Source: Sulfurihydrogenibium azorense Az-Fu1
GTDB taxonomy: Bacteria > Aquificota > Aquificia > Aquificales > Hydrogenothermaceae
Assembly (NCBI RefSeq): GCF_000021545.1
Contig: NC_012438.1
Location: 1,114,003 to 1,178,002 of the forward strand
Direction: 5' to 3'
DNA: 64,000 nt
Every line of letters begins with the position of its first letter. Positions within the stretch are counted from its first letter, which is position 1. Below the pieces are notes generated by a model. That model did no database searches. It had not been told where the DNA came from and worked only from the letters and a program-made list of their open reading frames with translations. Below, piece after piece: positions 29,752 through 46,658 of the stretch. The translations under genes and the position numbers were made by a program.

Positions 29752-30291
29752 TTAACTTCCCATAGTTGCTTTTTCGTTTTCGTTGTATATTGCTTCCCAA
29801 CCTGCAGGTGTTTTAAAGACTCTTATACATTTTATTTTTTTATTTTCATCAAGTTCAAACCAATGTCTTGCTCCCGCTGGTACGACTATCAACTCTCCGG
29901 CTTCTACGTGAATATCTACTATATCGTCTTCTATTTTTACAGGGAATATTCCACTACCATCAACTACAAACCTTACTTCATCATCTATATGGTGGTGTTC
30001 TCTTTTAAACTTTTCCATAAGTGCATCTAAATTTGGTGTTTTTTCTGATAGGACAACTATATCTTCTGTTATGTATCCCATCCTCTGTTTTAACTCATCT
30101 AACTCCGGTTTGTAAGCTTCAATTATTACTCTTTGGTTTTCTTCGTCTATATCGTAATTTTTTCTTACTTCTTCATCGAGTCTGTCTATTCCCCATCTAT
30201 CGTAAATTACTCCGTACCTTTCTAAAAATGTTTTTATCTCTTCTGGATTTTCTATAACTTTACCACTTTTTCTAAAAACTAACTTTGCCAT
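29752..30291 (-). CDS. mtnD: Acireductone dioxygenase
   Basis: This 179-residue cupin acts late in the methionine salvage pathway, oxidising acireductone to formate and the keto acid precursor of methionine (Fe form). The metal ligands are visible as His99, His101, Glu105 and His143, in HHHIDDEVRF and PAGARHWFEL. The spacing HxH-x3-E-x37-H equals that of characterised members. It is 12 bp downstream of mtnB, so the two salvage enzymes are cotranscribed. Confidence 0.93.
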   Translation of the reverse strand: MAKLVFRKSGKVIENPEEIKTFLERYGVIYDRWGIDRLDEEVRKNYDIDEENQRVIIEAYKPELDELKQRMGYITEDIVVLSEKTPNLDALMEKFKREHHHIDDEVRFVVDGSGIFPVKIEDDIVDIHVEAGELIVVPAGARHWFELDENKKIKCIRVFKTPAGWEAIYNENEKATMGS

Positions 30292-30303
30292 ATATAAACC
30301 TCC

Positions 30304-30951
30304 TTACCAGATATCTTTAGTTGATTTAAATAGTATAAGATTTTTCATAAGTTCAAACATAAACTCAAAGGCTTCTACGTGTCTTTTTGCCTCAAACTCG
30401 TTTCTTCCCCAGCAGTAGATACCATGGGTTTTTATTAAGACTGCCGGAACTTTTGGATTTATAACTTTCCCTGTCTCTTGGGCTAACTTGTTTAAATCAA
30501 AGTAATTTTCTACTATTGGAACTTCTATCTCCGAGTTTTCTTCCCATATATCTAATGCTTTTATCATCTCTAAATCTTTTATTTTCACTTTTGAATCTTG
30601 AGCGTATACGTAAGATATAAAGTTGTTGTTTGGAGTGTGTATGTGGATAATACAACCTGCGTCGGTCTTTTTGTAGATGTAAGAGTGTATCATTGTCTCA
30701 GCTGACGGTTTCATTCTTGTTTTTTCTATGGGTTTTCCATCTTTATCAACAAACATAACATCTTCGTGGCTAACTGTTCCTTTGTCTTTTCCTGAGGTTG
30801 TAACTGCAAAAATAAGAGGGTCATCGTGAAGTTTGTAGGAAAGATTTCCACTTGTTGCAGGAAACCAGCCTTTGTTGTAGAGTTTTATTTTTAAATCGTT
30901 TAAAACGTTTACAGCTCTTTGTTTTTCTTCTTGATAAAGTCTCTCTGGCAT
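30304..30951 (-). CDS. mtnB: Methylthioribulose-1-phosphate dehydratase
   Basis: This 215-residue class II aldolase-fold enzyme dehydrates 5-methylthioribulose-1-phosphate. ATSGNLSYKL near residue 37, VTTSGKDKG, KPSAETMIHSYIY, CIIHIHTPNNN (zinc His pair) and KTHGIYCWG are in the expected order. It heads the operon mtnB-mtnD-DUF2628-fabI-thiS-hisS-tgt. An upstream AGAGG supports the ATG. The rest of the salvage pathway is not in this window. Confidence 0.92.
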   Translation of the reverse strand: MPERLYQEEKQRAVNVLNDLKIKLYNKGWFPATSGNLSYKLHDDPLIFAVTTSGKDKGTVSHEDVMFVDKDGKPIEKTRMKPSAETMIHSYIYKKTDAGCIIHIHTPNNNFISYVYAQDSKVKIKDLEMIKALDIWEENSEIEVPIVENYFDLNKLAQETGKVINPKVPAVLIKTHGIYCWGRNEFEAKRHVEAFEFMFELMKNLILFKSTKDIW

Positions 30952-31008
30952 AAAAGACCTCTAAGTGCAATAGTAAAAATATATTTTATCATATTATTTA
31001 TTTTTTAT

Positions 31009-31945
31009 TGGAAAGTAAGATAAAAAACACATCAGACTAACACAAATAATGCTATCATCTTTGAAAAAATCCTACAAGAGCAAAACAGAGGGAAAAAATT
31101 AAAACCGACTTATTACTAAAACACCTATTTAAAAACCCAGCAACAAAACTCATAGAGATAATCCTCGGTAAAAAAGTAAACTGGCAGCTCCTTCAAGATA
31201 CTGACCTTAAAATAGTTAAAACCAGAGAAGCTGACTTGGTTGTTAAATTGGAAGATAATACCATTCTACACATAGAGATACAAAGCACCAATGACCCTTC
31301 TATGCCATACAGAATGTTTGAGTATTTTTATCTTATCACTGACAAGTATAAACCAAAAGACTTAATTCAAGTATGTATCTACATAGAAAAGAGCCGTTAA
31401 AAATGTCAGACAAGATACAGTTTTCAGATTGGACTTACAGGTATAGACTGATAGATATGAAGGATATACCATGTAGAGAGTTAGTAGCAAGTCCAAATAT
31501 CACAGACAAACTACTTGCAGGACTGTGTAAGATAGAAGACCCTAAGTTTTATGTAGAGAATGTGATAAAAGAGATAAAGAAAGCAAATCCAAAAGACAGA
31601 AAAGAGTTATTTACACTGTTTCTTGAAATAAGTAAAATAAGGAATAATATAGAGGAAGAGATAAGAAGTTATATAACACAGGAGGATTTTGAGATGCCAA
31701 TTACAATAGAGTGGACAAGGGAAGAGATAGAGAGTTATCCAGTGTTAAGAGATGTTTTAAAGATTGGGAAAGAAGAAGGTTTAATAGAAGGATTAAGACA
31801 GAGTGTGATTGATGCTATAGAGTTTAAATTTGGTTATGTGGGAGAAGATGTAAGGGAGAAGGTAAATCAAATATCTGATGTTAACCAGTTAAAAGAATTG
31901 CACAGAAAAGTTGTTCTTGCAAATAGTTTAAATGATATAATTTAG
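31009..31945 (+). repeat. Rpn-gene repeat block, copy 1 (direct repeat of 46659-47664)
   Basis: From GGAAAGTA at about 31009 the DNA matches the block at 46659 almost base for base, including some 80 bases upstream of the gene, and the match ends close to the stop codon. The two blocks are in the same orientation about 15.6 kb apart. Copy 1 lacks a 60-bp internal segment. I saw no terminal inverted repeats or target duplication. Confidence 0.9.
31089..31945 (+). pseudogene. Decayed Rpn-type PD-(D/E)XK nuclease gene
   Basis: Compared with the intact copy at 46738-47664, three lesions are visible. The start codon ATG reads AGG at 31089. One G is missing near 31386, so the frame meets TAA at 31398-31400. 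A 60-bp repeat segment encoding the EGxxxG run is absent near 31780. The stretch from 31373 to 31945 stays open and could give a 190-residue C-terminal fragment, with no clear ribosome site. The nuclease core (residues with EADLVV and IEIQS in the intact copy) lies in the part lacking a start. Confidence 0.9.
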
Positions 31946-31993
31946 TAAGTAAAATTGATATCCAGAGGTGAAAATTAAAATAAAAGTACTTAA

Positions 31994-33217
31994 TTATCTA
32001 CCATAAAGGTTCAGTAAGTCGAAGACCCGGAGGTTGTACTGGTATAGGGTAGAGATGTAAGACAGCTGAGTGTTTAGGTAGTTTGATTGGGATTCTAATA
32101 CTTCTAAGGTGTTTGTGATGTTTGCTTTAAACCTCTCTGTAGATAATCTCATAGACTCTTTTGCAACTTTTAAGTTTTCTTCTTCTGCTTTTAGCTGATT
32201 TTCAAGGGCTTGTAGGTCTATCTTTGCCTTTTTTATTTCCGTTTCTACTTGTTTTATTTTATCTTGGAGCTGTATCTCATACTTTGATTTGTCTGTTTTT
32301 GCCTGTAGAACTCTACTATCTTTTGCCATTCCGTCAAAGATGCTCCAGTTTAAAGAAAGTCCTAAGTTATAGCCTTTTTTCCATACTTCAGAGGTTGAAG
32401 GGAATTTAAATTGGTTGTTGGTTTGATAGTTTACAAATAAGGATAAGTTAGGATAGTTGGCTGACTTTTGGTACTCTATTTGTTTTTCAGCTGTTTGTAT
32501 TTGGGATATTAAAACTTTTATTTCTGTGTTGTTTTTAATATCTTGGTTTTCTTTTGGAATATCTAACTTTTCTAAACTACCTTCAGGTGGTGTAATATCC
32601 TCTAACATTAAAAATCTTTTTAGGTCTTCTATGGATTTTTCATAGTTTGCTTTTGCAAGCTGGTAGTCTGATATTGCAGTTTGAAGCTGAGATGAAGCTC
32701 TCATGTAATCATACTTTGCAAGTAAACCTGCTTTGTATTTTCCTTCAACGTATTTAAAGTTTTCTTCCCAGTATTTAAGGTTTTCCTGTTTTATATCCAT
32801 AACTTGTTTGTAGTATAAACTGGCTAAAAATAGTCTTCTTGCTGTATCTTTTACTTTTTGGATTACATCTTGCTTTACTACTTTTTGAAGCTCTAAGTTC
32901 TGTTTTGAAAGTTGTAAAAGATTAAGAACTTGGTAATCAAATATCTTTTGAGTTAAACCTATTTTTGCTGAGTATTGATTTTTAGGTGTAAAGCCAAAGA
33001 TGTAGTTAGGGTCCCATCTTGTATAGGTTCCTGTTAAGTTTACTTGAGGATAGATATTACTGTATGCTTCTTTTATTTGGTATTCTACTTTTTCTATATC
33101 TTTTTCAGATAACTTTATGTTAGTAGCGTTCTTTTCAGCGATAGAGAGGACTTCATCGTATGTAATTGCAAAGGAGCTTGAAAAGGATATTAAGAATGTA
33201 AGTAGTATTTTTTTCAT
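31994..33217 (-). CDS. TolC-family outer-membrane efflux protein
   Basis: This 407-residue protein has a Sec signal peptide (MKKILLTFLISFSSSFA) and two long helical repeats with TolC-type spacing. YSAKIGLTQKIFD lies in the first half and NLGLSLNWSIFDG in the second. It forms the outer-membrane channel of a tripartite pump. Its stop-proximal partner is the MFP gene just upstream (4-bp overlap), and the RND transporter is divergent across the shared promoter. Length is typical for the family. Confidence 0.9.
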   Translation of the reverse strand: MKKILLTFLISFSSSFAITYDEVLSIAEKNATNIKLSEKDIEKVEYQIKEAYSNIYPQVNLTGTYTRWDPNYIFGFTPKNQYSAKIGLTQKIFDYQVLNLLQLSKQNLELQKVVKQDVIQKVKDTARRLFLASLYYKQVMDIKQENLKYWEENFKYVEGKYKAGLLAKYDYMRASSQLQTAISDYQLAKANYEKSIEDLKRFLMLEDITPPEGSLEKLDIPKENQDIKNNTEIKVLISQIQTAEKQIEYQKSANYPNLSLFVNYQTNNQFKFPSTSEVWKKGYNLGLSLNWSIFDGMAKDSRVLQAKTDKSKYEIQLQDKIKQVETEIKKAKIDLQALENQLKAEEENLKVAKESMRLSTERFKANITNTLEVLESQSNYLNTQLSYISTLYQYNLRVFDLLNLYGR

Positions 33218-34317
33218 TTTGCTACCTCTGGTTGTTGTATTACTTTAACTGGCATTCCGTGTTTTACGTTCATAAGGTTAGACACTATAACTTTATCATC
33301 TTGTTTTAAATCCCCAGATACGTAAACATATCCATATTCTTGCTTTAAAACGTTAACTAATACTTTTTCAGCTTTTGAGTCTACAACTTTATAAACAAAA
33401 TTGTCATTACCTGCAAGTTGTACTGCGTCTTCTGGAAGTTTATAACCTTCCACTTTATCAACTAATATTTTTGCCTTTCCATACATATTTTCTCTAAGTA
33501 AACCATCTTTGTTGTCAAGTAAGACTTTTACAACGATTAAGTTGTTTTCATTTAAAGAAGACGAAATGTAATCTATCTTGCCTTTTACTGCTCCTATACC
33601 ATCTACATCTATTTCAACTTCTTTACCTAAAGATAGATTTTTTACATACTGTTGAGGAAGTTCAAAGACTGCCCATATAGGATTTAGTTTTAAGATGTAA
33701 AACATGTCTTTTTGGCTATCAACGTAATCTCCTATGCTAACGTATCTTTTATCTAAGTAGCCGTCAAAGGGAGCTCTTATAACTGTTTCATTCTTTTGTC
33801 TTTTATACTCTTTTAAGGTTGCTTTGGCAGAGTTTAACTGATTTAGAGCCACTTCCATATCTGTTTTTGCGTTGTCTAACTCTTCTTTGGCTATTAGTTC
33901 TTTTTCATATAGCTGTTTTCTTCTTTCGTATATTGATTTTTTGTTTAGGTAGTTTGCTTCAAGTTGGTTTATAACTGCAAGTTGAGATTCTATCTGGTAT
34001 TCTTCCTTTTCTGGTTGAATTACTGCAAGAGGTTGTCCTGCTTTTACGAAGCTTCCTTCTTCTGCAAATATCTTTTCAACTCTTCCACTTACTTGCGGTT
34101 TTAGTTTTGCAGAGGTTTTTGCTTGTAAAACTGCGTTTGCAGTGTAATATATAGGCACTTCTTGTTTTTCTGGTATGATAACTTTAACTGCAGGAGCTGG
34201 TTTTTGAGGTCTTTGATCTGTTTGACTTTTTGATTTTTTTTCTATAGATTTAAGTATAAAGAAAGCTACTGCAATAATAACTACAACAGATATAGCAGTA
34301 ATAACTTTTTTATTCAT
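33214..34317 (-). CDS. RND-type membrane fusion protein (HlyD/AcrA family)
   Basis: This 367-residue periplasmic adaptor has an N-terminal membrane anchor (about residues 5-22) and a lipoyl/barrel-sandwich half with LKPQVSGRVEKIFAEEGSFV. A coiled-coil hairpin (about 100-170) follows, then the second half-motif RAPFDGYLDKRYVSIGDYV. It links the RND pump at 34389 with the TolC protein at 31994. It is the first gene of the minus-strand transcript that starts at the TetR-type operator. Confidence 0.93.
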   Translation of the reverse strand: MNKKVITAISVVVIIAVAFFILKSIEKKSKSQTDQRPQKPAPAVKVIIPEKQEVPIYYTANAVLQAKTSAKLKPQVSGRVEKIFAEEGSFVKAGQPLAVIQPEKEEYQIESQLAVINQLEANYLNKKSIYERRKQLYEKELIAKEELDNAKTDMEVALNQLNSAKATLKEYKRQKNETVIRAPFDGYLDKRYVSIGDYVDSQKDMFYILKLNPIWAVFELPQQYVKNLSLGKEVEIDVDGIGAVKGKIDYISSSLNENNLIVVKVLLDNKDGLLRENMYGKAKILVDKVEGYKLPEDAVQLAGNDNFVYKVVDSKAEKVLVNVLKQEYGYVYVSGDLKQDDKVIVSNLMNVKHGMPVKVIQQPEVAK

Positions 34318-34328
34318 AACTTCCTCTC

Positions 34329-34356
34329 TTGACTGATTTGTCAGTCATATTATAAA
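34329..34356 (+). promoter_or_regulatory. Promoter for the RND-to-EmrB operon
   Basis: TTGACT (34329-34334), a 16-bp spacer and TATAAA (34351-34356) lie just upstream of the RND start. The operator at 34330-34347 overlaps the -35 box and spacer, so a bound repressor would block RNA polymerase. Confidence 0.6.
34330..34347. promoter_or_regulatory. TetR-type operator (perfect inverted repeat)
   Basis: TGACTGA-TTTG-TCAGTCA is a perfect 7-bp inverted repeat with a 4-base centre, a common TetR-family operator form. It covers the plus-strand -35 and the minus-strand initiation region. A further half-site CAGTCAAG is at 34371-34378. The only regulator in the cluster is the TetR protein at 38594-39172. 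Confidence 0.7.
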
Positions 34357-34377
34357 ATAAAGAGACAAAACAGTCAA
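34349..34377 (-). promoter_or_regulatory. Promoter for the MFP-TolC operon
   Basis: On the minus strand TTGACT (34377-34372), exactly 17 bp, and TATAAT (34354-34349) give a near-consensus sigma-70 promoter. Initiation would fall at about 34342, inside the operator. It faces the plus-strand promoter, and the -10 elements overlap. Confidence 0.75.
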
Positions 34378-34388
34378 GGAGTTTATAG

Positions 34389-37300
34389 ATGTATAAGTTT
34401 TTTATAACAAGACCGATAACAACTTGGATGTTTATCTTATCCTTTATAATAGCTGGAATTTACGCTTTAAAGTACATACCAGTAGATAGAAACCCGGATG
34501 TTGACTTTCCAGTTGTATCAATAAGTACTACCTACGCAGGAGCAAACCCTTATGTTATAGACACTAACATAACAAGGAAGATAGAAGATGAACTTGCTAC
34601 TATAAGTGGTATAGAGGCTATAAACTCTTCAAGTTATACAGGAGTATCAAGGATAACCGTAATATTTGACCTTGATAAAGATATAAACATTGCAGCACAG
34701 GAAGTTAGGGATGCAGTTAACAGGGCTCAAAGACAGTTTCCTCCTAATACTGACCCTCCAGTAGTTAGAAAGGTTGATACATCTTTAGCTCCTATTATGG
34801 CTATCTTACTTCACGGTTATGCAGATTACGGTACTATGTCTTACCTTGCAGATAAAGTTTTAAAAAGGGAGTTTGAAAGAGTCCAAGGTGTTGGTGAGGT
34901 AGATTTAGGAGGATTTAGGGACTATGTAATGTGGGTCAGGATAGACCCTCTAAAGCTTGCAGGGTTTAAGCTCACTCCTATGGACGTTATAAATGCATTA
35001 AAATCAAACAATGTGGAAATTCCATCGGGAAGAATTGACAGTAAGGATAGGGAGTATGTCTTAAGAGTCTACGGGAAGGGAAGGTCTCCCCAAGAGATAG
35101 AAAACATAATAATAAAAAATAATGTAAGGATAAAAGATGTAGGTAGAGCAGAGTTTACCTTTGATGAAAAAAGAGGAATAGTTAGATTTAAAGCTTTTGA
35201 TTCTAAAGAGGCAGAACCGGGTATAGCTATAATCGTATACAAACAGTCAAAAGAAAACACCGTTGCAGTAGCAAAAAGAGTTATAGATAAGATGAATGAA
35301 CTCAATAAACAGCTCCCACAAGGTTTAAGACTTGATATAAACTATGACGCATCTACTTTTATAGAAAGAAGTGTAAACGATGCTCTTCACGAGATTGTCT
35401 TGGGGTCCATACTTACAGCCTTTATGGTTTTCTTATTCTTGGGAAGTTTTAAAATGACTTTTATACCTTCTATGGCTATTCCTGTATCAATCTTAGGTGC
35501 CATAGCGGCCTTATTTTTCTTTGGACAGTCTTTAAATACTTTTACGCTTTTGGCTTTAGCTGTTGCAGTTGGACTTGTTATTGACGATGCTATTGTTGTA
35601 ATGGAAAGTATATACAGGAGAAATGAAGAAGGTTTAAGGGGTATAGAAGCAGCCGAAAAGGGAACAAAAGTTGTTATATTTGCCTTACTTGCTTCTACAG
35701 CTTCCTTAATTGCTATATTTATTCCCGTTTTATTTTTAAAAAGTGTTATAGGAAAGTTTTTCTTTGGGTTTGCTTTAACACTGATTGTTGCAATTGCTAT
35801 ATCCTACATAGTGTCTTTAAGCTTTACTCCAATGATTTCAGCAAGGTTAGTTGAAGCAGGAGAGAAAAACATCTTCCAAAGAGCTTACGATAGGTTTGAA
35901 AACTGGTTTGACAAAGCTTTAAGATGGTCTTTAAATAATAAAGTTATAGTTTTAGCAATATCTTTGGCAACGATAATAATAGGTTTTAAGCTGGCATCTA
36001 TAACTCCAAAAGAGTTTACACCTATCGTTGATGAAGGAAGGTTTTTAGTAAGGTTTGAGACGCCTACAGGGTCTTCTTTTGACTTTGTTGATAAAAAGGC
36101 TAAGGAGCTTGAAAAAATTGTATCGAGTAATCCTTACGTACTACGTTATGGTGTTGCTTTTGGTGAAGGTATAGCAGGAAGACCTACAGTGAATGGTGGT
36201 ATATTTTTCATAACCCTTAAAGATAGGTCAACAGGCAGACCCCATCAAAAAGTTATAATGGACCAATTTAGAAAAGAGTTTGCAAAAGTAAGTGATGTTA
36301 GAGCTATTATAGATATTCCTTCAGCTGTCGGACCAAGGGGTGGAAGGTCAGCTGATATTATGTACATAATAAAAGGGACGGATTTAAACGAACTTGCAAA
36401 AATATCTTCTCAACTTGAAACTAAACTCAGACAAACTCCAGGGTACACAGATATAGACACTGACTTAAGGATAAACCAGCCTGAAGTGAGGGTAGAGATA
36501 GATAGAGATAAAGCTTTAAATTTAGGTGTGTCAGTAGAAGATATAGCAAACACACTTAACTTTTTGTTTGGCAAATACAAAATAGGAACTTATGAAAAAG
36601 GCTCTGAGAGTTATAACTTCTATGTGAAAGCTGATGAATCCTTTTTAACAAGTTTTGATAATCTATCAAAGATTTACGTAAAGGCAAAAGATGGGTCTTT
36701 AATACCTCTATCCTCTCTTATAACATATCAGCTTGCACCAGGTTATAACGTTATAAACAGATACAACAGACAGTATGCAGTTACACTTTACGCAAACGTG
36801 ACAGGTGGAAAGTCAGTAGGAGAAGGTGTTATAGAAGTTGAAAACATGATAAAACAAGCACTTCCATCAGGGTATACCTATGAAATAGGAGGTCAGACGA
36901 AAGAGTTTAAAAGAACCTTCGGTTATTTAGCAGTTGCTTTAATAGTAGCATTGATAGCTGTTTATATGGTTTTAGCTTCTTTATTTGAAAGTCTAATTCA
37001 TCCTTTTACAGTTTTACTTACACTTCCTTTTGCTGTATCAGGTGTTTTTGGTTTGATTTTAATTACAGGGCAGACCTTAAACGTAACTTCATACTTTGGA
37101 ATAATTCTTTTGATAGGACTTGTAACCAGAGACAGTGTTTTATTTATAGAGAGAATAATTCAGCTGAAAAAAGAAGGATTAGACACAATAAACGCAATCC
37201 TTCAGGCTAGGAAAGAAAGACTAAGACCAATCCTTATGACAACTTTAACCATATTTGCATCTTTGATACCTGTATCTTTAGGGCTAACAGAAGGTTCAGA

Positions 37301-37430
37301 GATGAGACAACCACTTGCTATAGCTGTTATAGGTGGATTAATAACAGCATTACCTCTTAGTCTTTTCGTAATACCTATAATGTACGTAATCATTGATAAA
37401 ATCAGATTTTTAGTAAAAAGGGAGGTGTAG
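34389..37430 (+). CDS. RND multidrug efflux transporter (AcrB/MexB family)
   Basis: This 1013-residue inner-membrane proton-driven exporter has twelve transmembrane segments: one near residue 12, six around 330-540 and five around 850-1005. Two periplasmic loops separate them. In TM4, GLVIDDAIVVMES holds the Asp-Asp pair of the proton relay. The usual TM10 Lys region reads GLVTRDSVLFIERI, so Arg replaces Lys. It works with the divergent MFP and TolC. It opens a six-gene plus-strand operon. Confidence 0.95.
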   Translation: MYKFFITRPITTWMFILSFIIAGIYALKYIPVDRNPDVDFPVVSISTTYAGANPYVIDTNITRKIEDELATISGIEAINSSSYTGVSRITVIFDLDKDINIAAQEVRDAVNRAQRQFPPNTDPPVVRKVDTSLAPIMAILLHGYADYGTMSYLADKVLKREFERVQGVGEVDLGGFRDYVMWVRIDPLKLAGFKLTPMDVINALKSNNVEIPSGRIDSKDREYVLRVYGKGRSPQEIENIIIKNNVRIKDVGRAEFTFDEKRGIVRFKAFDSKEAEPGIAIIVYKQSKENTVAVAKRVIDKMNELNKQLPQGLRLDINYDASTFIERSVNDALHEIVLGSILTAFMVFLFLGSFKMTFIPSMAIPVSILGAIAALFFFGQSLNTFTLLALAVAVGLVIDDAIVVMESIYRRNEEGLRGIEAAEKGTKVVIFALLASTASLIAIFIPVLFLKSVIGKFFFGFALTLIVAIAISYIVSLSFTPMISARLVEAGEKNIFQRAYDRFENWFDKALRWSLNNKVIVLAISLATIIIGFKLASITPKEFTPIVDEGRFLVRFETPTGSSFDFVDKKAKELEKIVSSNPYVLRYGVAFGEGIAGRPTVNGGIFFITLKDRSTGRPHQKVIMDQFRKEFAKVSDVRAIIDIPSAVGPRGGRSADIMYIIKGTDLNELAKISSQLETKLRQTPGYTDIDTDLRINQPEVRVEIDRDKALNLGVSVEDIANTLNFLFGKYKIGTYEKGSESYNFYVKADESFLTSFDNLSKIYVKAKDGSLIPLSSLITYQLAPGYNVINRYNRQYAVTLYANVTGGKSVGEGVIEVENMIKQALPSGYTYEIGGQTKEFKRTFGYLAVALIVALIAVYMVLASLFESLIHPFTVLLTLPFAVSGVFGLILITGQTLNVTSYFGIILLIGLVTRDSVLFIERIIQLKKEGLDTINAILQARKERLRPILMTTLTIFASLIPVSLGLTEGSEMRQPLAIAVIGGLITALPLSLFVIPIMYVIIDKIRFLVKREV

Positions 37431-37433
37431 AAG

Positions 37434-38597
37434 ATGCAGGATTTTGAATTTCACAACCCAACCAAGATAATCTTTGGAAGAGGAAAAGAAAACCTTATAG
37501 GTAAAGTACTTAAGGAAGACGGTATTAAAAAAGTACTTTTTGTGTATGGACAGTCTTCTATAAAAAAGACAGGTTTATACGATAGAGTTGTAAACAGTCT
37601 TAAGGAAAACGGTATAGAGTTTGTAGAACACGGTGGAGTAAAACCTAACCCTGTTTTATCTCATACAAGAGAAGGAATAGAAAAAGCAAAGAAAGAGAAA
37701 GTAGACGCAATTTTATCAGTAGGTGGTGGGTCAGTTTTAGATGAAGGTAAAGCCATAGCAGTTGGAGCTGTAGCAGATAAAGATGTATGGCAGTTTTTTA
37801 AAGGAGAGCCTATAACAGATGCTTTACCAAACTACACCATACTTACGTTAGCAGCAACTGGCAGTGAGATGAATGGTTATGCTGTTATAACAAACGAAGA
37901 TACACAGGAAAAGTTGTCCATCTCATCCATACTAATATACCCAAAAGTCTCAATCTTTAATCCGGAGCTAACTTTTAGTGTATCTCCACAGTATCAAGCC
38001 TACGCAGCTGTAGATGCAATAGCCCATACAATAGAGTGGTACTTTACCTGTAATGTCTGCCCTAACTTACAAAACAGGCTTGTAGAGAGCATAGTAAAAA
38101 CAGTTATGGAAACTACAGAAAAGATACTTGAAAATCCTTACGATTACAATGCAAGAGCTGAGTTTATGTGGGCTGCTACCCTTGCACTTAATGGCATCAC
38201 AAGGACAGGCTATGGAGGAGGTGTTTATGTAAACCACATGATTGCCCACTCTCTTGGAGCTCTCTACGACTTACCTCACGGAGCTTGTCTGTCTATCGTA
38301 ATTCCTGCTTGGATGTGGTGGTATAAAGATAAAAACCCAACTCAGTTTGAAAGGTTTGCAAAAGAGATTTTTGGGTTAAACAAAAAAGAAGAAGGAATAA
38401 AAGCATTAAAAAGTTGGTTTAAAAAGATAGGAGCTCCCGTATCACTTCAAGATGGAAATATACCTTCATCAGACATAGATAAGATAGCAAACCACGTTTA
38501 TCATACAACGGCAGTCCTTTGGGGATTAGATAAAGTTTACACCGTTGATAAAATAAAAGAGATTTTATACCTTGCTTTAAGGAGTAATATAGAGTGA
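37434..38597 (+). CDS. Iron-containing alcohol dehydrogenase (BDH/YqhD type)
   Basis: This 387-residue group III dehydrogenase has FGRGKENLIG near residue 16 and GGGSVLDEGKAIAVGA near 95 for NAD(P). The metal-binding region has DAIAHTIEWYF and HMIAHSLGALYDLPHGACL with the conserved Asp and His ligands. Relatives reduce aldehydes with NADPH. The ATG follows GGAGGTG located inside the end of the RND gene. Placement between a pump and its regulator suggests detoxification of a reactive aldehyde or alcohol, which is inference. Confidence 0.93.
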   Translation: MQDFEFHNPTKIIFGRGKENLIGKVLKEDGIKKVLFVYGQSSIKKTGLYDRVVNSLKENGIEFVEHGGVKPNPVLSHTREGIEKAKKEKVDAILSVGGGSVLDEGKAIAVGAVADKDVWQFFKGEPITDALPNYTILTLAATGSEMNGYAVITNEDTQEKLSISSILIYPKVSIFNPELTFSVSPQYQAYAAVDAIAHTIEWYFTCNVCPNLQNRLVESIVKTVMETTEKILENPYDYNARAEFMWAATLALNGITRTGYGGGVYVNHMIAHSLGALYDLPHGACLSIVIPAWMWWYKDKNPTQFERFAKEIFGLNKKEEGIKALKSWFKKIGAPVSLQDGNIPSSDIDKIANHVYHTTAVLWGLDKVYTVDKIKEILYLALRSNIE

Positions 38598-39172
38598 AGT
38601 TAGAAACAAGGGAAAAACTTTTACAGTCTGCCAAAGAGCTTTTTTCAAAAAAAAGCTACTACGAAACAAAAGTCTCAGATATAGTAGAAAAATCAGGAGT
38701 GGCTCAAGGGACTTTTTACATTTACTTTAAAAGTAAAGAAGAGATATTTTTAGAGCTTGTAAAATCTCTCCACCTAGACCTTATGGAAAGACTTGGAAAG
38801 TATATAAAAATAGAAAAAGATTGCCAAAGTCTTATAAAAGACTTCGTAAAAGAGTTTTTAACAGAAGTTTACAACAACAGAGAGATAGCAGAGATATTCT
38901 TTTCCCAGCTTTTTGGATTAAACCAAGATTTTAAAAAACTTTACCTAAAGAAGATATCAGACATACAAAATCTTATCTTTAGAGTTGTAAATAGATACTT
39001 CCCAGAGGAAGAAAGTCAGATTTTATCAACGTTGATACTTGGATTTGTTAGGCAGATATTTTTTAACTGCTTAACAAATAAAAATTTAAGTTTAGACCAG
39101 ATGTTATCAAAAGCCGAAAAAGGAATTGATATAATTTTTCAAGGAATATACTCGGAGGAACGAAAAAGTTGA
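38594..39172 (+). CDS. TetR/AcrR-family regulator
   Basis: This 192-residue repressor has an N-terminal helix-turn-helix: KVSDIVEKSGVAQGTFYIYFKSKEEIF, about residues 22-48, a textbook TetR domain. The helical C-terminal domain binds the inducer and is not conserved enough to name a ligand. The start is GTG overlapping the dehydrogenase stop (GTGA), and the end overlaps the TolC start (TTGA). It probably binds the operator at 34330-34347 and thus represses its own operon. Confidence 0.93.
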   Translation: MKLETREKLLQSAKELFSKKSYYETKVSDIVEKSGVAQGTFYIYFKSKEEIFLELVKSLHLDLMERLGKYIKIEKDCQSLIKDFVKEFLTEVYNNREIAEIFFSQLFGLNQDFKKLYLKKISDIQNLIFRVVNRYFPEEESQILSTLILGFVRQIFFNCLTNKNLSLDQMLSKAEKGIDIIFQGIYSEERKS

Positions 39173-40431
39173 AAAAGTTAATATTTTCTTTAATCTTTAT
39201 CTCATCTGCAAATGCCATAACACTACAGGAAGCTGTTAATAAAGCACTGGAAAACAACAAAGAGATACTATCTTATAAGCAGCAGATAAAAACAGCAGAA
39301 TTTCAGCTAAAAGTAGACCAAACTCTTTATCTTCCTACTATTTATACCCAAGTATCCCAGAGCTTCTACAACCAAACACCAATGACAAAGATACCTAACT
39401 TTCCTGTATCCTTTAAACAGTCTAACAGAGATTTTTTAAAGTTTGATATAGGATTTTCTCAAAGTTTATATACAGGAGGTTTAACTCAAGCTAAGATAGA
39501 AGCTTCAAAGTATAACCTAAAAGCCACACAATCCTTTTACAAAGAAAAAGAAAATCAAATAAAAGCAGAGGTTATAAAGGCATACATAGATGTTTTTATA
39601 TCAAAATCTCTTATAGATATATACAAAAAAGAGCTTGAAGCTGTGGAGTCTATATACAAACAACAAGAAGCATTTTTCAAAGAAGGTATAATAACAAAAG
39701 TAGACTTACTCCAATCTAAGGTAAGACTTGCAGAAGTAAAGAGAGACCTTCAGCAAGCAGAAGGTAACTATAAAATAGCACTATCAAGACTATCACAGTT
39801 AATAGGAGAAGATTTAAAAGATGAAAATTTTGAACCTCTTAATATAGAGATAAAGGACATTCCAAGTTTAGATACACTGATAGAAACAGCTTATCAGAAA
39901 AGAAAAATACTAGATTTTTATAAAGAAAACATCAATCAAGCAGAAAAAGTTGTAGAGATAGAAAAATCAGCATTTTTACCCAAAGTCTTTCTACAGGGAG
40001 ATTACATTTACACAAACCAAAGCCCATACTTAGACCCAAAAGGAAACTTTCTTTTAACATTGGGAGCTTCCATAGAATTTCAGACAACACAACCTTACTA
40101 TAAGATACTTCAAGCAAAGTCAAACGCCAAAAAGTTAAGGTTTGATTTACAAGATACAAAAGAGAAAATCAAGTTAGAGCTAAAAACAGCCTATGAAAAT
40201 TATATTACAGCCAAAGAAAATTACAAAGTTGCCTTAGAAAGCCTTGATTATGCTAAAGAGTACTTTGAGTTGGTAAAAGAACAGTATACTAACCAGCTTG
40301 CCACAAACACAGACCTTTTAAACGCAGAAAGTGCCCTTACAAGAGCCTTAGAAAGCAAAGAGATAAACTATTACAACCTTTTAAAGTCTTACATAGATAT
40401 TAAAAAAGCTGTGGGGGAAGATATTCCATGA
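39169..40431 (+). CDS. TolC-family outer-membrane efflux protein (second)
   Basis: This 420-residue protein has a signal peptide (MKKLIFSLIFISSANA) and two TolC-like repeats. These include KFDIGFSQSLYTGGLTQAKI and the later half with LTLGASIEFQTTQPYYKI. It starts with TTG, supported by CGGAGG ten bases upstream. It is probably the outer-membrane channel of the EmrAB-type pump encoded just downstream (4-bp overlap). Its similarity to the first TolC is only at family level, so it is not a recent duplicate. Confidence 0.9.
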   Translation: MKKLIFSLIFISSANAITLQEAVNKALENNKEILSYKQQIKTAEFQLKVDQTLYLPTIYTQVSQSFYNQTPMTKIPNFPVSFKQSNRDFLKFDIGFSQSLYTGGLTQAKIEASKYNLKATQSFYKEKENQIKAEVIKAYIDVFISKSLIDIYKKELEAVESIYKQQEAFFKEGIITKVDLLQSKVRLAEVKRDLQQAEGNYKIALSRLSQLIGEDLKDENFEPLNIEIKDIPSLDTLIETAYQKRKILDFYKENINQAEKVVEIEKSAFLPKVFLQGDYIYTNQSPYLDPKGNFLLTLGASIEFQTTQPYYKILQAKSNAKKLRFDLQDTKEKIKLELKTAYENYITAKENYKVALESLDYAKEYFELVKEQYTNQLATNTDLLNAESALTRALESKEINYYNLLKSYIDIKKAVGEDIP

Positions 40432-41564
40432 ATGGAAAAGGAAAGAAGGTAGGACTGATTATAACTGTACTTTTAATCGTAGTTTTCCTAATCTATGCAG
40501 TTAAATGGATAAACCATAGAATGAAGTATGCTATATCAGATGCAGTTTTTGTTGAGTCTGACTATCTTTCAAATATAGGTTTTAACAGAGTCTCAGGAAG
40601 AGTAGTTCAGCTTTACAAAAAAGAGTCTGACGAAGTAAAGGCTGGAGAAGTGATAGCAAAGATAGATGATACAGACTATAAACTACAAATAGAGGCTTTA
40701 GAAAAAGAGATAGAAGCTTTAACCTACCAAAAAAAACAACTTGAAAGTCAGCTCCAAAGAGTAGCAAGAGAGACAGATATAAACGAGAGTATATCAGCCT
40801 TAACAGTTGAAGAAATAAGTAAAAAGTTAGAGAGCCTAAAAGCTCAAAAAGACCAGATAGAATCTCAAATCAAGTTGGCTAAAAAAGATGAAGAAAGATA
40901 TAGAAACCTTTTAGAAAAAGGATTGGTAGCCAAAAGAAAGTATGAAGAAGTACATACAAACCTTGAAGTTTTAGAAAAACAGAAATTAGCAATTGAGAAA
41001 AATATAAGTGAGCTTAAAGTTTCTATGGAAAAGTCTAAAAAGTCTGTAGAGTACGCAAAAACACAAAAAAGTATAACTGAAGAATTACAAAACCAGATAA
41101 ACGCTATCAGCAGTCAGATAGAATCTTTACTTAAGAAAAAACAAGACCTTGAAAATCAGCTCCAATACACAGAGTTAAAAGCTCCTTTCAATGGTGTTGT
41201 TGCAAAAAAGTTTGTCTCTATCGGTGATGTAGTAAAGGCAGGACAGCCTGTGTACGCTATTTTAAAGTCTGACAGCTTCTACGTAAAAGTGCTACTTGAA
41301 GAAACCAAGTTAGAAGGTGTAAAAGTAGGTAATAAAGCTTATATTAAGTTAGATGCTTACCCTGATAAGACCTTTGAAGGTGTCGTTGAAAGTATAGATG
41401 TTGCCTCAGCTGCAAAGTTTGCCTTGGTTCCAAGGGATATATCAGCAGGAGAGTTTACAAAACTTGCCCAGAGAATACCGGTAAAAATAAGAATAACTAA
41501 GGGAGATATATCTTTACTCAGAGTTGGATTAGGCGGTGAAGTTGAGATAGAAAAAAGCAGGTAA
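40428..41564 (+). CDS. EmrA/HlyD-type membrane fusion protein
   Basis: This 378-residue adaptor has one N-terminal membrane segment (about residues 8-28), a barrel-sandwich half (NRVSGRVVQLYKKESDEVKAGEV), a very long coiled coil (about 85-235) and the second half ELKAPFNGVVAKKFVSIGDVV. Its anchor and long hairpin match EmrA adaptors that serve MFS pumps. It overlaps the TolC gene by 4 bp and is 2 bp from the MFS gene. Confidence 0.92.
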   Translation: MNGKGKKVGLIITVLLIVVFLIYAVKWINHRMKYAISDAVFVESDYLSNIGFNRVSGRVVQLYKKESDEVKAGEVIAKIDDTDYKLQIEALEKEIEALTYQKKQLESQLQRVARETDINESISALTVEEISKKLESLKAQKDQIESQIKLAKKDEERYRNLLEKGLVAKRKYEEVHTNLEVLEKQKLAIEKNISELKVSMEKSKKSVEYAKTQKSITEELQNQINAISSQIESLLKKKQDLENQLQYTELKAPFNGVVAKKFVSIGDVVKAGQPVYAILKSDSFYVKVLLEETKLEGVKVGNKAYIKLDAYPDKTFEGVVESIDVASAAKFALVPRDISAGEFTKLAQRIPVKIRITKGDISLLRVGLGGEVEIEKSR

Positions 41565-41566
41565 AG

Positions 41567-43141
41567 ATGGAAAATACAAAACCAATTTACGAAAGAATAA
41601 CAACCTTAGAAAGAGCTCTAATAACCTTTATTGTTATGAGTGGAGCCTTTATGGCTATACTTGATACAACTATCGTTGATGTTGTAGTTCCTAAAATGAT
41701 GGGACCTCTTCAAACAGACCTTTACGGTATTCAATGGGTTATAACAGCTTACATGATAGCCTCAGCTGTGATGCTTATTCTATCAGAATGGCTTGATAAA
41801 GTGATTGGCCTTAGAAAGGTTTATATAGCCGGAATAGTTCTCTTTACTTTTTCTTCATTTATGTGTGGTCAAGCTCAAAACTTAGATTGGATGATTACTG
41901 CAAGGGTTTTCCAAGGTATCGGAGAAGCTCTAATAATGGCTACAGCTCAAACGATACTTTTCTCAGTGTATCCTGAGGAAAAGAAAGGAATGGCTATGGG
42001 TATATTTGGACTTGGTGTTAGCTTTGCACCTGCTTTGGGACCTACTTTGGGAGGTTATATCACAGAGTACTTAAACTGGAGATGGGTATTTTTTATAAAT
42101 ATACCTTTTGGTATTTTAACAACGATTTTAGCCATATTCTATTTACCTGAGACAAGTATGATAAGAGAAAAGGCAAAACTTAACTTTGTATCTTACTTTT
42201 TCTTATCTGTTTTTACAATATCCCTTTTGATTTTTCTATCTAAGGGACAACAGCTTGGCTGGTTTATGTCAGACGTAATTGTTTACCTTTTTATAGTATC
42301 TATACTGTCTTTACTTCTATACATCCTGTCTGAAATCTTGTCAAAAGAACCTTTGATAGACTTTAGAATATTCCTGATAAAAGAGTACTTTGTAGGATTT
42401 TCTGTTTTCTTTTTACTCCTTGGATTCTCAATGTATCAGGTTTTTTATCTAATACCTCTATACTACGAAAATCTAAAGGGACTTTCAACCTTTGATGCAG
42501 GACTACATATACTTGCTTTTGCAATGTTTATAGCTATTTTTTCACCAGTTGCAGGAATACTTTCAGACAAATGGAACGAAAGGTACGTTTTATACATAGC
42601 AACAGCTATATACCTTATATCTTCAATCTTCATCCTTCCAAATCTTGATTACTACACACCAAAAGTTAGAGCTGCCTTAATGACTATACCACTTGGGATA
42701 GCAATGGGAATGTTTTTTGCCCCCGTGACTACTTTAGCACTTAGGAAGCTTGGAGAGAAGACATCTTTAGGAACTGGACTTATGCACTATGGAAGGTTTG
42801 TAGGAGGCTCTTTTGGGACGGCAATAGCAACAAACGACCTGTATAAGCACCAGTGGGAACATTTTGAAGGTATTAACGCAATGCAAAACAACACCTACGT
42901 TCAAAGTTTTATAGATAAAGTAAAAGAAAGTATAGTATCTTTACCAGACCAGATAGCTGAAGCAAAAGCAAAAGCACTGCTTTACAGTGTTGAGTATTTA
43001 CACAGCTTAAACTTTTCTTTTCAAGATACTTTTTTCATAGCTGGACTGTTTGGTTTAGTCGGCTCATTACCTGTTATATATATGTTTATATCGGATATAA
43101 TTCACAAAAATTCAAACAGTGATAAATCTATAAATGAATGA
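41567..43141 (+). CDS. EmrB-type MFS multidrug transporter (DHA2)
   Basis: This 524-residue membrane protein has the 14-segment DHA2 layout. TM1 contains SGAFMAILDTTIVDVVVPKM (motif D1-like). QWVITAYMIASAVMLIL and the motif C region GLGVSFAPALGPTLGGY follow, then LNWRWVFFINIPFGIL. It would form a tripartite pump with the EmrA-like adaptor and the second TolC. Its 3' end overlaps the convergent DUF488 gene by 14 bp, with no terminator in between. Confidence 0.95.
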   Translation: MENTKPIYERITTLERALITFIVMSGAFMAILDTTIVDVVVPKMMGPLQTDLYGIQWVITAYMIASAVMLILSEWLDKVIGLRKVYIAGIVLFTFSSFMCGQAQNLDWMITARVFQGIGEALIMATAQTILFSVYPEEKKGMAMGIFGLGVSFAPALGPTLGGYITEYLNWRWVFFINIPFGILTTILAIFYLPETSMIREKAKLNFVSYFFLSVFTISLLIFLSKGQQLGWFMSDVIVYLFIVSILSLLLYILSEILSKEPLIDFRIFLIKEYFVGFSVFFLLLGFSMYQVFYLIPLYYENLKGLSTFDAGLHILAFAMFIAIFSPVAGILSDKWNERYVLYIATAIYLISSIFILPNLDYYTPKVRAALMTIPLGIAMGMFFAPVTTLALRKLGEKTSLGTGLMHYGRFVGGSFGTAIATNDLYKHQWEHFEGINAMQNNTYVQSFIDKVKESIVSLPDQIAEAKAKALLYSVEYLHSLNFSFQDTFFIAGLFGLVGSLPVIYMFISDIIHKNSNSDKSINE

Positions 43142-43565
43142 TTTTTATTTCTTTTTCAGGAAAGTTTTCTTTTAAATATTCTGCCGTGAGTCTTCTGTGG
43201 CATTTTTCTGCTGTTGGCTCACTACACAATAAGACAGCATTGTCAAAATCTTCTATTTTAACCTTTTCTAAAATCTTCCTCTTTTCAAGTATTTGTAAAA
43301 ATATTTTCTCATAATCTTCCCAATCAATCTTTTTTTTATCATAACTATATAACAACTCTTTAGTAGGTGCAAAGATTGGAAGATACATATATTCAATATT
43401 ATGTAGCTTTAAAAAGTAAGGTAAATGTTTTATGTTAGTAAACCCTGCCAGTTGAGATTTGTTGTTCAATCTTATATCTATTAACTTTTTAACATTATGC
43501 TTTCTAAGTGTTGTGAAAAACTCTTCAGCTGTTTTGCCACTAAAACCAATTGTATATATATTCAT
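43128..43565 (-). CDS. DUF488 protein
   Basis: This 145-residue protein has the complete DUF488 pattern: MNIYTIGFSGKTAEEFFTTL, KLIDIRLNNKSQ near residue 30, and the C-terminal VLLCSEPTAEKCHRRLTAEYL with the conserved Cys-x-Glu and Cys-His-Arg. The biochemical role of the family is not settled. It overlaps the upstream DUF488 paralogue by 4 bp, so both are made from one message. Confidence 0.88.
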   Translation of the reverse strand: MNIYTIGFSGKTAEEFFTTLRKHNVKKLIDIRLNNKSQLAGFTNIKHLPYFLKLHNIEYMYLPIFAPTKELLYSYDKKKIDWEDYEKIFLQILEKRKILEKVKIEDFDNAVLLCSEPTAEKCHRRLTAEYLKENFPEKEIKIIHL

Positions 43566-44125
43566 TCTTCATCTCCTACTTTTGTATAAGCATTATAAGC
43601 TATATCTTTGTTTCTAAGTATAAAAGCTTTTTTTACTATGTCTTTATCATTTTCTAAGTCTTCTGCTGTTTTGAATAAAGATTTCTGCATTAATTTATGT
43701 TTATACATATTTATCATTCTACTAATAAGATCATTTTGCGAAAGAAGATATTCAGGATATATATGATAAACTTGATACCCTCTTTCAGCTAAAACTGGTG
43801 ATATTAAAACAAACCTATGACAATTTAATGCTTCTTCTTCTGAACACATTAAAGCAATTGTATATCCTTTATCTACTCCATTTTGTATTCTTAAAATTCC
43901 TTCTTGAAATTCTTTTGTTTTTTTTACCTTTTCAAAGTTAACTTTTCCGTCTTCAAATAGTAGATTTTTTTGAAACCACCTTGCTCCAAGATTTTTTCCC
44001 ATATAAATATAATAAATTCCTCTCTCCTTCAGGAATAACTTTAAGTTGTCTGAGTTGAACTGATTAGCATATTTAGAAAAAGGAACACTTCTAACATCAA
44101 TTAAAACATTTATATCATAAACCAT
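43562..44125 (-). CDS. DUF488 protein, N-terminally short
   Basis: This 187-residue paralogue of the next gene contains LIDVRSVPFSKYANQFN near residue 8, KNLGARWF and ALMCSEEEALNCHRFVL. The usual first 20 residues (YTIGHS-like) are missing; the ATG places the protein start just before LIDVRS. The DNA upstream does not show the missing motif in any frame I checked. It has about 50 extra C-terminal residues of charged helix. Either the family member is naturally short or its 5' end was lost. Confidence 0.75.
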   Translation of the reverse strand: MVYDINVLIDVRSVPFSKYANQFNSDNLKLFLKERGIYYIYMGKNLGARWFQKNLLFEDGKVNFEKVKKTKEFQEGILRIQNGVDKGYTIALMCSEEEALNCHRFVLISPVLAERGYQVYHIYPEYLLSQNDLISRMINMYKHKLMQKSLFKTAEDLENDKDIVKKAFILRNKDIAYNAYTKVGDEE

Positions 44126-44239
44126 ATTGGGATGAATAAGATAGGTATTTAGTTAAATACAACTTAAGAAACAGAATGAGGAATAATTTAGTGTTATATA
44201 GATGGAATTTACAACTGTTTAGGTAATTTTTAACTGAAT

Positions 44240-44400
44240 ACCGAAATATATACAATTATAGAATATCTTAAACCATACAATAGAATAGAAATAGAAGGTG
44301 AAGTATTTTCATAGTAGGAAAAGTTATAAAAGATAACTGTAATAATACCTACAAAGAGGATTTTGAAGTTGAAGTAATATCACTGATAAAAAATCAGTAA
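44240..44400 (+). pseudogene. Short frameshifted coding remnant
   Basis: One frame reads TEIYTIIEYLKPYNRIEIEGEVF and then meets TAGTAG at 44312. The neighbouring frame from 44302 continues FIVGKVIKDNCNNTYKEDF to TAA at 44398. Both parts have protein-like composition and join smoothly around 44305, as after a single-base indel. No family is recognised. Chance open frames in AT-rich DNA remain possible. Confidence 0.35.
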
Positions 44401-44439
44401 GGGCATTTTTAGCTAAATATCCTTCAAGCTACTCCCCTA

Positions 44440-44448
44440 TGTTATAAT
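44440..44448 (+). promoter_or_regulatory. Extended -10 promoter for the HerA-like gene
   Basis: TGTTATAAT combines a TG dinucleotide with a perfect -10 hexamer 38 bases before the ATG. No good -35 box is present, as is normal for extended -10 promoters. The same 9-mer precedes metG. Confidence 0.6.
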
Positions 44449-44486
44449 GAATGAAAAATTATACTACTTCATAAAGAGGATAAAAT

Positions 44487-46052
44487 ATGGAAAAAATAGG
44501 TATCTGTGTAGGGACAACAAGCCCAAACAGAGTAACTTTTATATCCCAAAAACCTGTAAAGTTAGGTCAGTTTGTAAACGTAAAGTACACAGAAAATGGT
44601 AAAGAAAATAAACTACTTGGAATGGTTATAAACGTTCAAAGGAAAAATACCTACATTCCAGAAGACCTACCAAGTATAAATAACTATGAAAGACTCTTTA
44701 AAGAGAGTGAAAAAGATACAAAAGTAATAGGAGAAATCCAGATATTAGGAGAAATTATAGAGACCCAAGACCAAGTTTTCTTACAGCTCCAGAGAGTTCC
44801 GCCCCTTCCAGCATCAGAAGTCTTAAAACCAGACCCTAAAGTGTTAGAAAAACTTTTTGGTGCAAAAAGTAAAAGCCATATAAGAATAGGAAGACTACTG
44901 GCAGAAGATAAAGAAATTCCTGTGTATGTAGATGTAAATCAGATAGTTTTAAGACATCTGGCTATTTTGGCAATAACCGGAGCTGGAAAATCTAACACAG
45001 TATCAGTTCTCCTTGAGAATATAGTTAATTTAAAAGGTACAGTTGTAGTGTTTGACTTTCATGGAGAGTATACAAAGTCAGATTTTAAAAGAGATGGTAA
45101 AAGTGTTGTAAATGTAATAAAACCAGTAGTTGACCCTACGACTCTTGACATAAGAGACTTTGCAAAACTTATAGGAATAAAGTATAACGCTACGGTTCAG
45201 TTTAGATATTTTAAAGTAGCTGTAGATAAGGTAATCCAAAGTATAAGAGATGAAAAAGGAAATGACTGGAAAAGGTGGATAGATACAGACCAATTTTTTA
45301 ATAGATTAGAACAAGAGCTTGAAAGTTGGTTAGATGATGATAATGATAACGTACCTATTAAAGGTAAGATAAGGGAAGACTCTTTGTATGAAGTTATAAA
45401 CAAGTTAAACGACACTCAAAATGAACTTAGCCATATAATAAAGATAGGTGCAAAAGATTTAATAGAAAATATACAAGCTGGGAAAATAAACGTATTTGAT
45501 TTATCAGAAGTAGACGAGGATGTAGCTGACGCTATAGTGTCAAACGTGTTAAAACATGCATTAGAAGAAAGGAAAAAAGCCGTAAGAGGTAAAAATTCTA
45601 AACTTGAAAAACCTATACTTGTAGTAGTAGAAGAAGCTCACATACTTGCAGGAGATAAGAGAGATACAGACTCAAAGTACTATATGATGAGAATAGCAAG
45701 GGAAGGAAGGAAGTTTGGTCTTGGACTTTGTGTAGTAACCCAAAGACCAAAAGGCTTAGACAAAGAGATACTATCTCAGATGAATAATATGATTATACTA
45801 AAGTTAGTTGAACCAGAAGACCAAAAACATGTCCAAAGTGCAAGTGAAGCCTTATCGTCGGAGCTGATGAGTTATCTTCCATCTTTAAACCCGGGAGAAG
45901 CCATAATAATTGGAAATATGACAAAACTACCTTTACTAGTAAAAATAGACAAAGCAAAAGGAAAAGTCCAAGGAAACGATATTCAAGTAGTAGACTTATG
46001 GACTACCACAGAAGAAAAAAGGTCCGATTTAAAGGCTTTAGATGAGTTTTAA
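44487..46052 (+). CDS. HerA-like hexameric ATPase (DUF87)
   Basis: This 521-residue protein has an N-terminal beta-barrel region (HAS-barrel, about residues 1-110) and a RecA/FtsK-like ATPase. Walker A is AITGAGKSNT at residues 162-171, Walker B is PILVVVEEAHIL, and the sensor/arginine region is GLGLCVVTQRPKGLDKEI. HerA proteins are DNA translocases, in archaea paired with NurA in end resection. No NurA gene is adjacent. It overlaps lipB by 11 bp. AAGAGG lies before the ATG. Confidence 0.9.
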   Translation: MEKIGICVGTTSPNRVTFISQKPVKLGQFVNVKYTENGKENKLLGMVINVQRKNTYIPEDLPSINNYERLFKESEKDTKVIGEIQILGEIIETQDQVFLQLQRVPPLPASEVLKPDPKVLEKLFGAKSKSHIRIGRLLAEDKEIPVYVDVNQIVLRHLAILAITGAGKSNTVSVLLENIVNLKGTVVVFDFHGEYTKSDFKRDGKSVVNVIKPVVDPTTLDIRDFAKLIGIKYNATVQFRYFKVAVDKVIQSIRDEKGNDWKRWIDTDQFFNRLEQELESWLDDDNDNVPIKGKIREDSLYEVINKLNDTQNELSHIIKIGAKDLIENIQAGKINVFDLSEVDEDVADAIVSNVLKHALEERKKAVRGKNSKLEKPILVVVEEAHILAGDKRDTDSKYYMMRIAREGRKFGLGLCVVTQRPKGLDKEILSQMNNMIILKLVEPEDQKHVQSASEALSSELMSYLPSLNPGEAIIIGNMTKLPLLVKIDKAKGKVQGNDIQVVDLWTTTEEKRSDLKALDEF

Positions 46053-46623: not shown

Positions 46624-46658
46624 CACTGATTTCCAATCAATATTAAGAGTTTGGAATC

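Follow-up and report, generated by a model that had tools for sequence, protein, structure and literature searches.

The question raised by this locus is whether two tripartite efflux pumps, one of the RND type and one of the MFS type, could share a single TetR-family regulator and a single operator with an alcohol dehydrogenase encoded among them, as an earlier reading made from the sequence alone had suggested. The window (the whole stretch of DNA analysed, 64 kb in length) lies within the single-contig 1.64-Mb genome of a hot-spring bacterium, its closest named relatives being Sulfurihydrogenibium, and the features that bear on the question are collected in Table 1. The answer reached here is that one TetR protein and one operator very probably do control the RND pump, the dehydrogenase (ADH), tetR itself and the EmrAB-type pump together, a view that rests on comparison of sequences.

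Table 1 Features of the efflux locus, with the basis on which each was assigned
Feature	Positions	Strand	Basis
TolC-like outer membrane channel (OEP), RND side	31994-33217	-	PF02321, 164.5 bits
Periplasmic adaptor (MFP), RND_mfp type	33214-34317	-	TIGR01730, 237 bits (above cut-off of 94.9)
RND-ward promoter, TTGACT-18-TAAAAT	34329-34358	+	10/12 consensus matches
Candidate operator, TGACTGA-TTTG-TCAGTCA	34330-34347	unstranded	Palindrome kept in relatives at the same place
MFP-ward promoter, TTGACT-17-TATAAT	34349-34377	-	11/12 consensus matches
RND permease, HAE1/multidrug-like	34389-37430	+	PF00873, 881 bits; NF033617, 863 bits (below cut-off of 1250)
Fe-ADH, butanol dehydrogenase/YqhD clade	37434-38597	+	PF00465, 157.5 bits
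TetR-family regulator	38594-39172	+	PF00440, 56.9 bits (above cut-off of 24)
TolC-like outer membrane channel, MFS side	39169-40431	+	PF02321, 208.8 bits
EmrA-type periplasmic adaptor	40428-41564	+	TIGR00998 best match, 292 bits (below cut-off of 390.8)
EmrB-type (DHA2) MFS permease	41567-43141	+	TIGR00711, 488.7 bits (above cut-off of 230.2)
Candidate terminator 3' of emrB	43182-43202	+	Weak: 6 such sites against 6.2 expected

Gene layout and the candidate operator

Gene content and order can be read directly from the DNA, as can the position of the operator, its conservation and its movement together with the genes. For all eight genes on the two arms Pfam and NCBIfam agree with the identities given in the sequence-only reading, EmrA through a best match that stays below its cut-off, and the tripartite set for the RND pump is complete (an ACR_tran permease, PF00873; an adaptor, TIGR01730; and a channel, PF02321), its halves lying on opposite sides of the operator as that reading had it, an arrangement seen also in Aquificaceae. 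The description of the genes as overlapping holds for most junctions, there being 4-nt overlaps at four of them (MFP/OEP, ADH/TetR, TetR/TolC and TolC/EmrA), but not for RND/ADH or EmrA/EmrB, where gaps of 3 nt and 2 nt respectively are found.

Some observations concern the surroundings and contents of the cluster more generally. It is flanked by two copies of a gene, apparently of Rpn/PD-(D/E)XK type (31007-31943 and 46656-47653; DNA 92-95% identical), and the ORF at 31373-31945 is the shorter one and is possibly broken. A plasmid origin of the cluster was rejected, as plasmid matches were all below 60% identity. The RND permease contains the DD motif. The relay residues of AcrB are D407, D408 and K940 (the last occurring as Lys940-Asn), and at the position presumed to correspond to K940 all RND orthologs with a readable motif have Arg-Asp (GLVTRD/GIIVRD) in a by-eye alignment; variation of the proton relay in these permeases is possible.

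Both promoters and the operator sit within the 71-bp intergenic region 34318-34388. The operator has perfect 7-nt arms around a 4-nt centre, 14 of its 18 bases being constrained, and several relatives have TGACTGATTTATCAGTCA in its place, in which there is one extra paired position. That this inverted repeat overlaps two facing promoters, as originally proposed, is borne out: it covers the final five bases of the RND-ward -35 together with the spacer of that promoter, and its other end stops 1 bp short of the MFP-ward -10, which puts it on top of the position where the MFP-ward transcript is predicted to begin. Judged from this placement, one bound dimer could block both promoters. The near-consensus promoter that had been picked out earlier is likewise present; it points towards MFP and OEP, and is the best of 39 promoter-like matches in the surrounding 14 kb.

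Chance alone would give about 0.0075 such repeats per 71-bp gap, and 64 kb of sequence holds 13 perfect 7-4-7 repeats against 8.9 expected; in isolation the palindrome is no more than mildly unusual, and its significance derives from its conservation in relatives. A search for the same operator elsewhere, as the sequence-only reading had envisaged, was run genome-wide and found the exact motif only once in 1.64 Mb, between MFP and RND; the next best site, at 1047241, has two mismatches and falls inside predicted ORFs, and a wider regulon across the genome was rejected on these grounds. Also rejected was a second operator formed by the looser pair 34328-34342/34364-34378, which corresponds to the facing -35 boxes and is conserved only at TTGAC. 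That the palindrome might be an RNA hairpin or terminator instead of a protein site is scarcely credible: arms of 7 bp with a 4-nt loop would be able to pair in RNA, but an Rfam search of 30000-45000 gave no match, and a structured RNA was rejected for that reason; moreover, the palindrome doubles as the spacer of one promoter and the start region of the other, in other genomes it overlaps the start codon of tetR, and its half-sites vary with residue 38 of TetR.

In the scheme preferred here, TetR would bind the 18-bp palindrome as a repressor, covering the predicted MFP-ward start region and, on the other promoter, the spacer and most of the RND-ward -35. In this way it would hold down both halves of the RND pump, the ADH, its own gene and the whole EmrAB-type tripartite pump of the MFS side. 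Release would come from a toxic, hydrophobic ligand (of a kind suggested by the protein family), whereupon the RND and MFS pumps would be made together. In this scheme we infer repression, binding by this particular TetR, a single plus-strand transcript and induction by a pump substrate.

Conservation of the operator and its movement with the genes

Among the 41 Hydrogenothermaceae genomes searched, the operator pattern occurs at 27 sites in 24 genomes, and when these are placed against gene starts every one falls at a promoter of this system, whether that of MFP, of RND or of tetR, while a reversed control pattern gave no sites at all. Four ARRANGEMENTS (A-D) can be distinguished among the relatives. 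In type A (the window, G001, G003, G006, G012, G019 and G015) OEP-MFP faces RND-ADH-TetR-TolC-EmrA-EmrB; in type B (G002 and G004, and G005 as judged from fragments) the latter arm is retained with MFP-OEP elsewhere; in type C (Aquificaceae) RND faces MFP-OEP-TetR-TolC-EmrA-EmrB and there is no ADH, the RND gene not being found on the stretch read in some cases; and in type D (Persephonella-like and other genomes, and Aquifex) TetR-TolC-EmrA-EmrB stands alone. The Emr module is therefore part of the RND arm in type A and of the MFP arm in type C. The operator lies between RND and MFP in most A and C genomes, including the six A-type genomes other than the window (the copy in G001 differing at one base of an arm), and the operator of Aquificaceae is related to that of the window, the core common to the order being ACYGA-N4-TCRGT. 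As for the promoters, the RND-ward one is retained by six relatives of type A and two of type B, and the MFP-ward one is strong in A-type relatives and also in relocated MFP arms (TTGACA-18-TATAAT).

The most informative cases are those in which the locus has come apart. In the 1.84-Mb chromosome of G004 the MFP-OEP arm maps to 74 kb and the RND arm to 1.42 Mb, roughly 0.49 Mb away, and exact TGACTGATTTATCAGTCA is found directly upstream of each; in G002 the arms are on separate contigs, each with an exact copy of the operator; and in G005 a copy is seen at the MFP arm, the RND contig being broken. In these split loci the promoter facing the absent arm has decayed: at the RND copies its -35 (MFP-ward) is gone, and at the MFP copies its -10 (RND-ward) is weaker. 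This would be expected if both promoters are genuine and each locus retains the one it can use. Retention of an operator copy at each separated piece makes the proposed control circuit believable, and together with the 27 family sites it argues for the earlier suggestion of one operator common to both arms. Similarly, one operator variant, TGATTGATGAGTCAGTCA, is present in G017 at both the RND divergon and the tetR-emr operon, which there occupy different contigs; this, with the arrangement in Aquificaceae, supports the idea that the RND and MFS pumps are controlled jointly. Nonetheless, the operator is missing from the RND divergon in G010, G018 and G024, implying that such co-control is not universal, so that in these genomes the coupling was either lost or never there.

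An alternative is that the operator controls the RND divergon only, TetR-TolC-EmrAB being merely co-located and driven by an internal promoter of its own. This seems improbable, even though in relatives TetR-TolC-EmrAB does occur by itself behind a separate promoter, and 0.45-1.8 kb of DNA has been inserted between RND and ADH in G001, G005 and G006, so that the downstream genes in those three may need another promoter. Against it, where tetR leads an operon in relatives its promoter itself carries the operator, while in the window there is no operator near tetR, junctions overlap by 4 nt, and promoter-like matches are fewer than chance would give (39 against 49.9 expected), on which basis internal promoters in the cluster were rejected. 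Even given an internal promoter, the dose of TetR would still link the RND and Emr units. Both the tight gene junctions and the way in which the operator follows the genes were counted in favour of shared control.

Several further features of the rearranged loci may be recorded here. The interruptions between RND and ADH (L075 6994-8769, L077 8301-8755 and L082 272-980) comprise three ORFs, of which one resembles TnpB and one a nucleotidyltransferase when their translations are inspected by eye. In Aquificaceae genus g11 the divergent RND/MFP region is split by a hicAB-like insert with operator copies on both sides; its hicB-like ORF (family assigned by eye) is at 11394-11816 in L089, 7116-7651 in L090, 5152-5827 in L157 and 10961-11491 in L159, and the insert in L157 also has a hicA-like ORF that by eye appears intact. 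In Persephonella-type relatives (L088, L092, L094, L096-L101, L143 and L146) the tetR start codon is within the operator, as TGACTG-ATG-AGTCAGTCA, and lies about 8 nt past the -10, from which a leaderless mRNA whose opening codons contain the operator is predicted. A tetR close to this type in L021 is on a contig labelled Flavobacteriales, probably through mis-binning.

The probable regulator and its match to the operator

The structure model of TetR (pLDDT 89.9) has as its best fold match 2EH3 (TM 0.77/0.85), and a TetR_C_42 domain was detected at 34.4 bits. There are three TetR genes in the genome, of which this is the only one that moves together with the operator. Its helix-turn-helix residue 38 corresponds with base 3 of the operator: where the residue is Gln, half-sites are exclusively ACTGA/ATTGA (25/25 genomes), and where it is Lys there is at least one ACCGA half-site (19/19), giving agreement in 44/44 genomes. 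However, it must be remembered that on the EmrB tree residue and base switch together only twice, with one independent pair on well-supported branches, so that this agreement amounts to two coincident switches and is not statistically significant alone; as a sign of recognition it is suggestive.

It is highly improbable that the operator is read by some other regulator, for instance one of the two further TetR proteins of the genome, since these are located elsewhere and are only 21-28% alike, while the operator keeps company with the tetR of the cluster: in genomes where that gene heads its own operon, those of Persephonella type among them, the operator sits at its start, in G017 operator and regulator change in step, and base 3 fits residue 38. 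The TetR of the cluster is thus the likely reader of the operator, in keeping with the single regulator first envisaged.

The dehydrogenase, the signal and comparison with known systems

The ADH has 1VLJ as its best solved relative (421.5 bits), followed by BdhA (255) and YqhD (213), against at most 140.5 bits for methanol dehydrogenase and propanediol dehydrogenase, and on these scores it is placed in the YqhD/butanol dehydrogenase clade, though the equivalog model for YqhD itself scores it below the cut-off (NF011717, 250 bits against 645). It occurs in 10 of 136 genomes of the phylum, always between RND and tetR, in genera g1, g7 and g10; this restriction means that the regulator and the pumps do not need it. 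A dedicated aldehyde/alcohol defence, in which TetR would sense an aldehyde or alcohol, the ADH would reduce the aldehyde and the pumps would export the product, is compatible with shared control, to which it would simply add a ligand. YqhD and butanol dehydrogenase are known aldehyde reductases, and the ADH by its position belongs to the operon, is 71-94% identical among carriers and has no second close copy. All the same this reading is unlikely, because most of the order has TetR, operator and pumps without this ADH, which consequently does not define the signal, and because the fold matches of TetR are scattered over several ligand classes (fatty-acyl, drug and EthR-like regulators), so that no verdict on ligand class could be reached from the fold. 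The earlier idea that the ADH reveals an aldehyde, alcohol or solvent signal accordingly finds no support here.

RND operons under TetR control through a palindromic operator are known for TtgR, SmeT and CmeR, in addition to AcrR. In AcrR-acrAB a local TetR acts at a palindromic operator in an intergenic promoter (PMC8277102); in systems of this type the regulator gene usually faces the pump, whereas here the RND halves face each other, the regulator is downstream in one arm, and there is a second tripartite pump. In VceR-vceCAB of Vibrio cholerae a TetR repressor acts over an operon of outer-membrane channel, adaptor and EmrB-like MFS pump (PMC6780985), the same functional content as TetR-TolC-EmrA-EmrB of the window, but that operon is described without an RND pump or dehydrogenase, and in the window the regulator gene lies inside the operon. 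The BjG30 locus of Bradyrhizobium japonicum, where an RND pump, TetR genes and metabolic enzymes are induced together by genistein (PMC4070704), differs in having no described MFS tripartite pump, in its unrelated enzymes and in its lineage. A literature search that took in few subscription papers found neither a description of this cluster nor a TetR operator between RND halves that also governs a dehydrogenase as well as a tripartite MFS pump. TetR control of channel-adaptor-MFS sets and TetR control through an intergenic palindrome are already known, and the present locus looks like a further variant of such systems.

The closest solved relative is aq_1058 of Aquifex aeolicus (2EH3), the best match of the window TetR in sequence as well as in fold (about 29-30% identical). 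The Aquifex ortholog is identical in sequence to this PDB entry, an identity on which the assignment of its genome (G057) to Aquifex aeolicus depends, and it is an ortholog by position, lying directly before TolC-EmrA-EmrB with ACCGACCGGTCGGT just upstream, although RND genes are not adjacent there; since the PDB title says only transcriptional regulator, this orthology allows an operator and a regulon to be proposed for a regulator of solved structure. A more ambitious reading, and a rather doubtful one, would be that of a regulon extending throughout the Aquificales, in which one TetR acts over RND and MFS tripartite pumps, operator copies are carried through rearrangements, and one branch has recruited a reductase for reduction and export of a reactive carbonyl.

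The analysis supplies a TetR family distributed across the Aquificales, among whose members is the protein of crystal structure 2EH3, with a concrete operator and a set of genes. The split loci look like the outcome of selection for common control of the two pumps, and the system lets the question of co-expression of RND and MFS pumps be tested directly.
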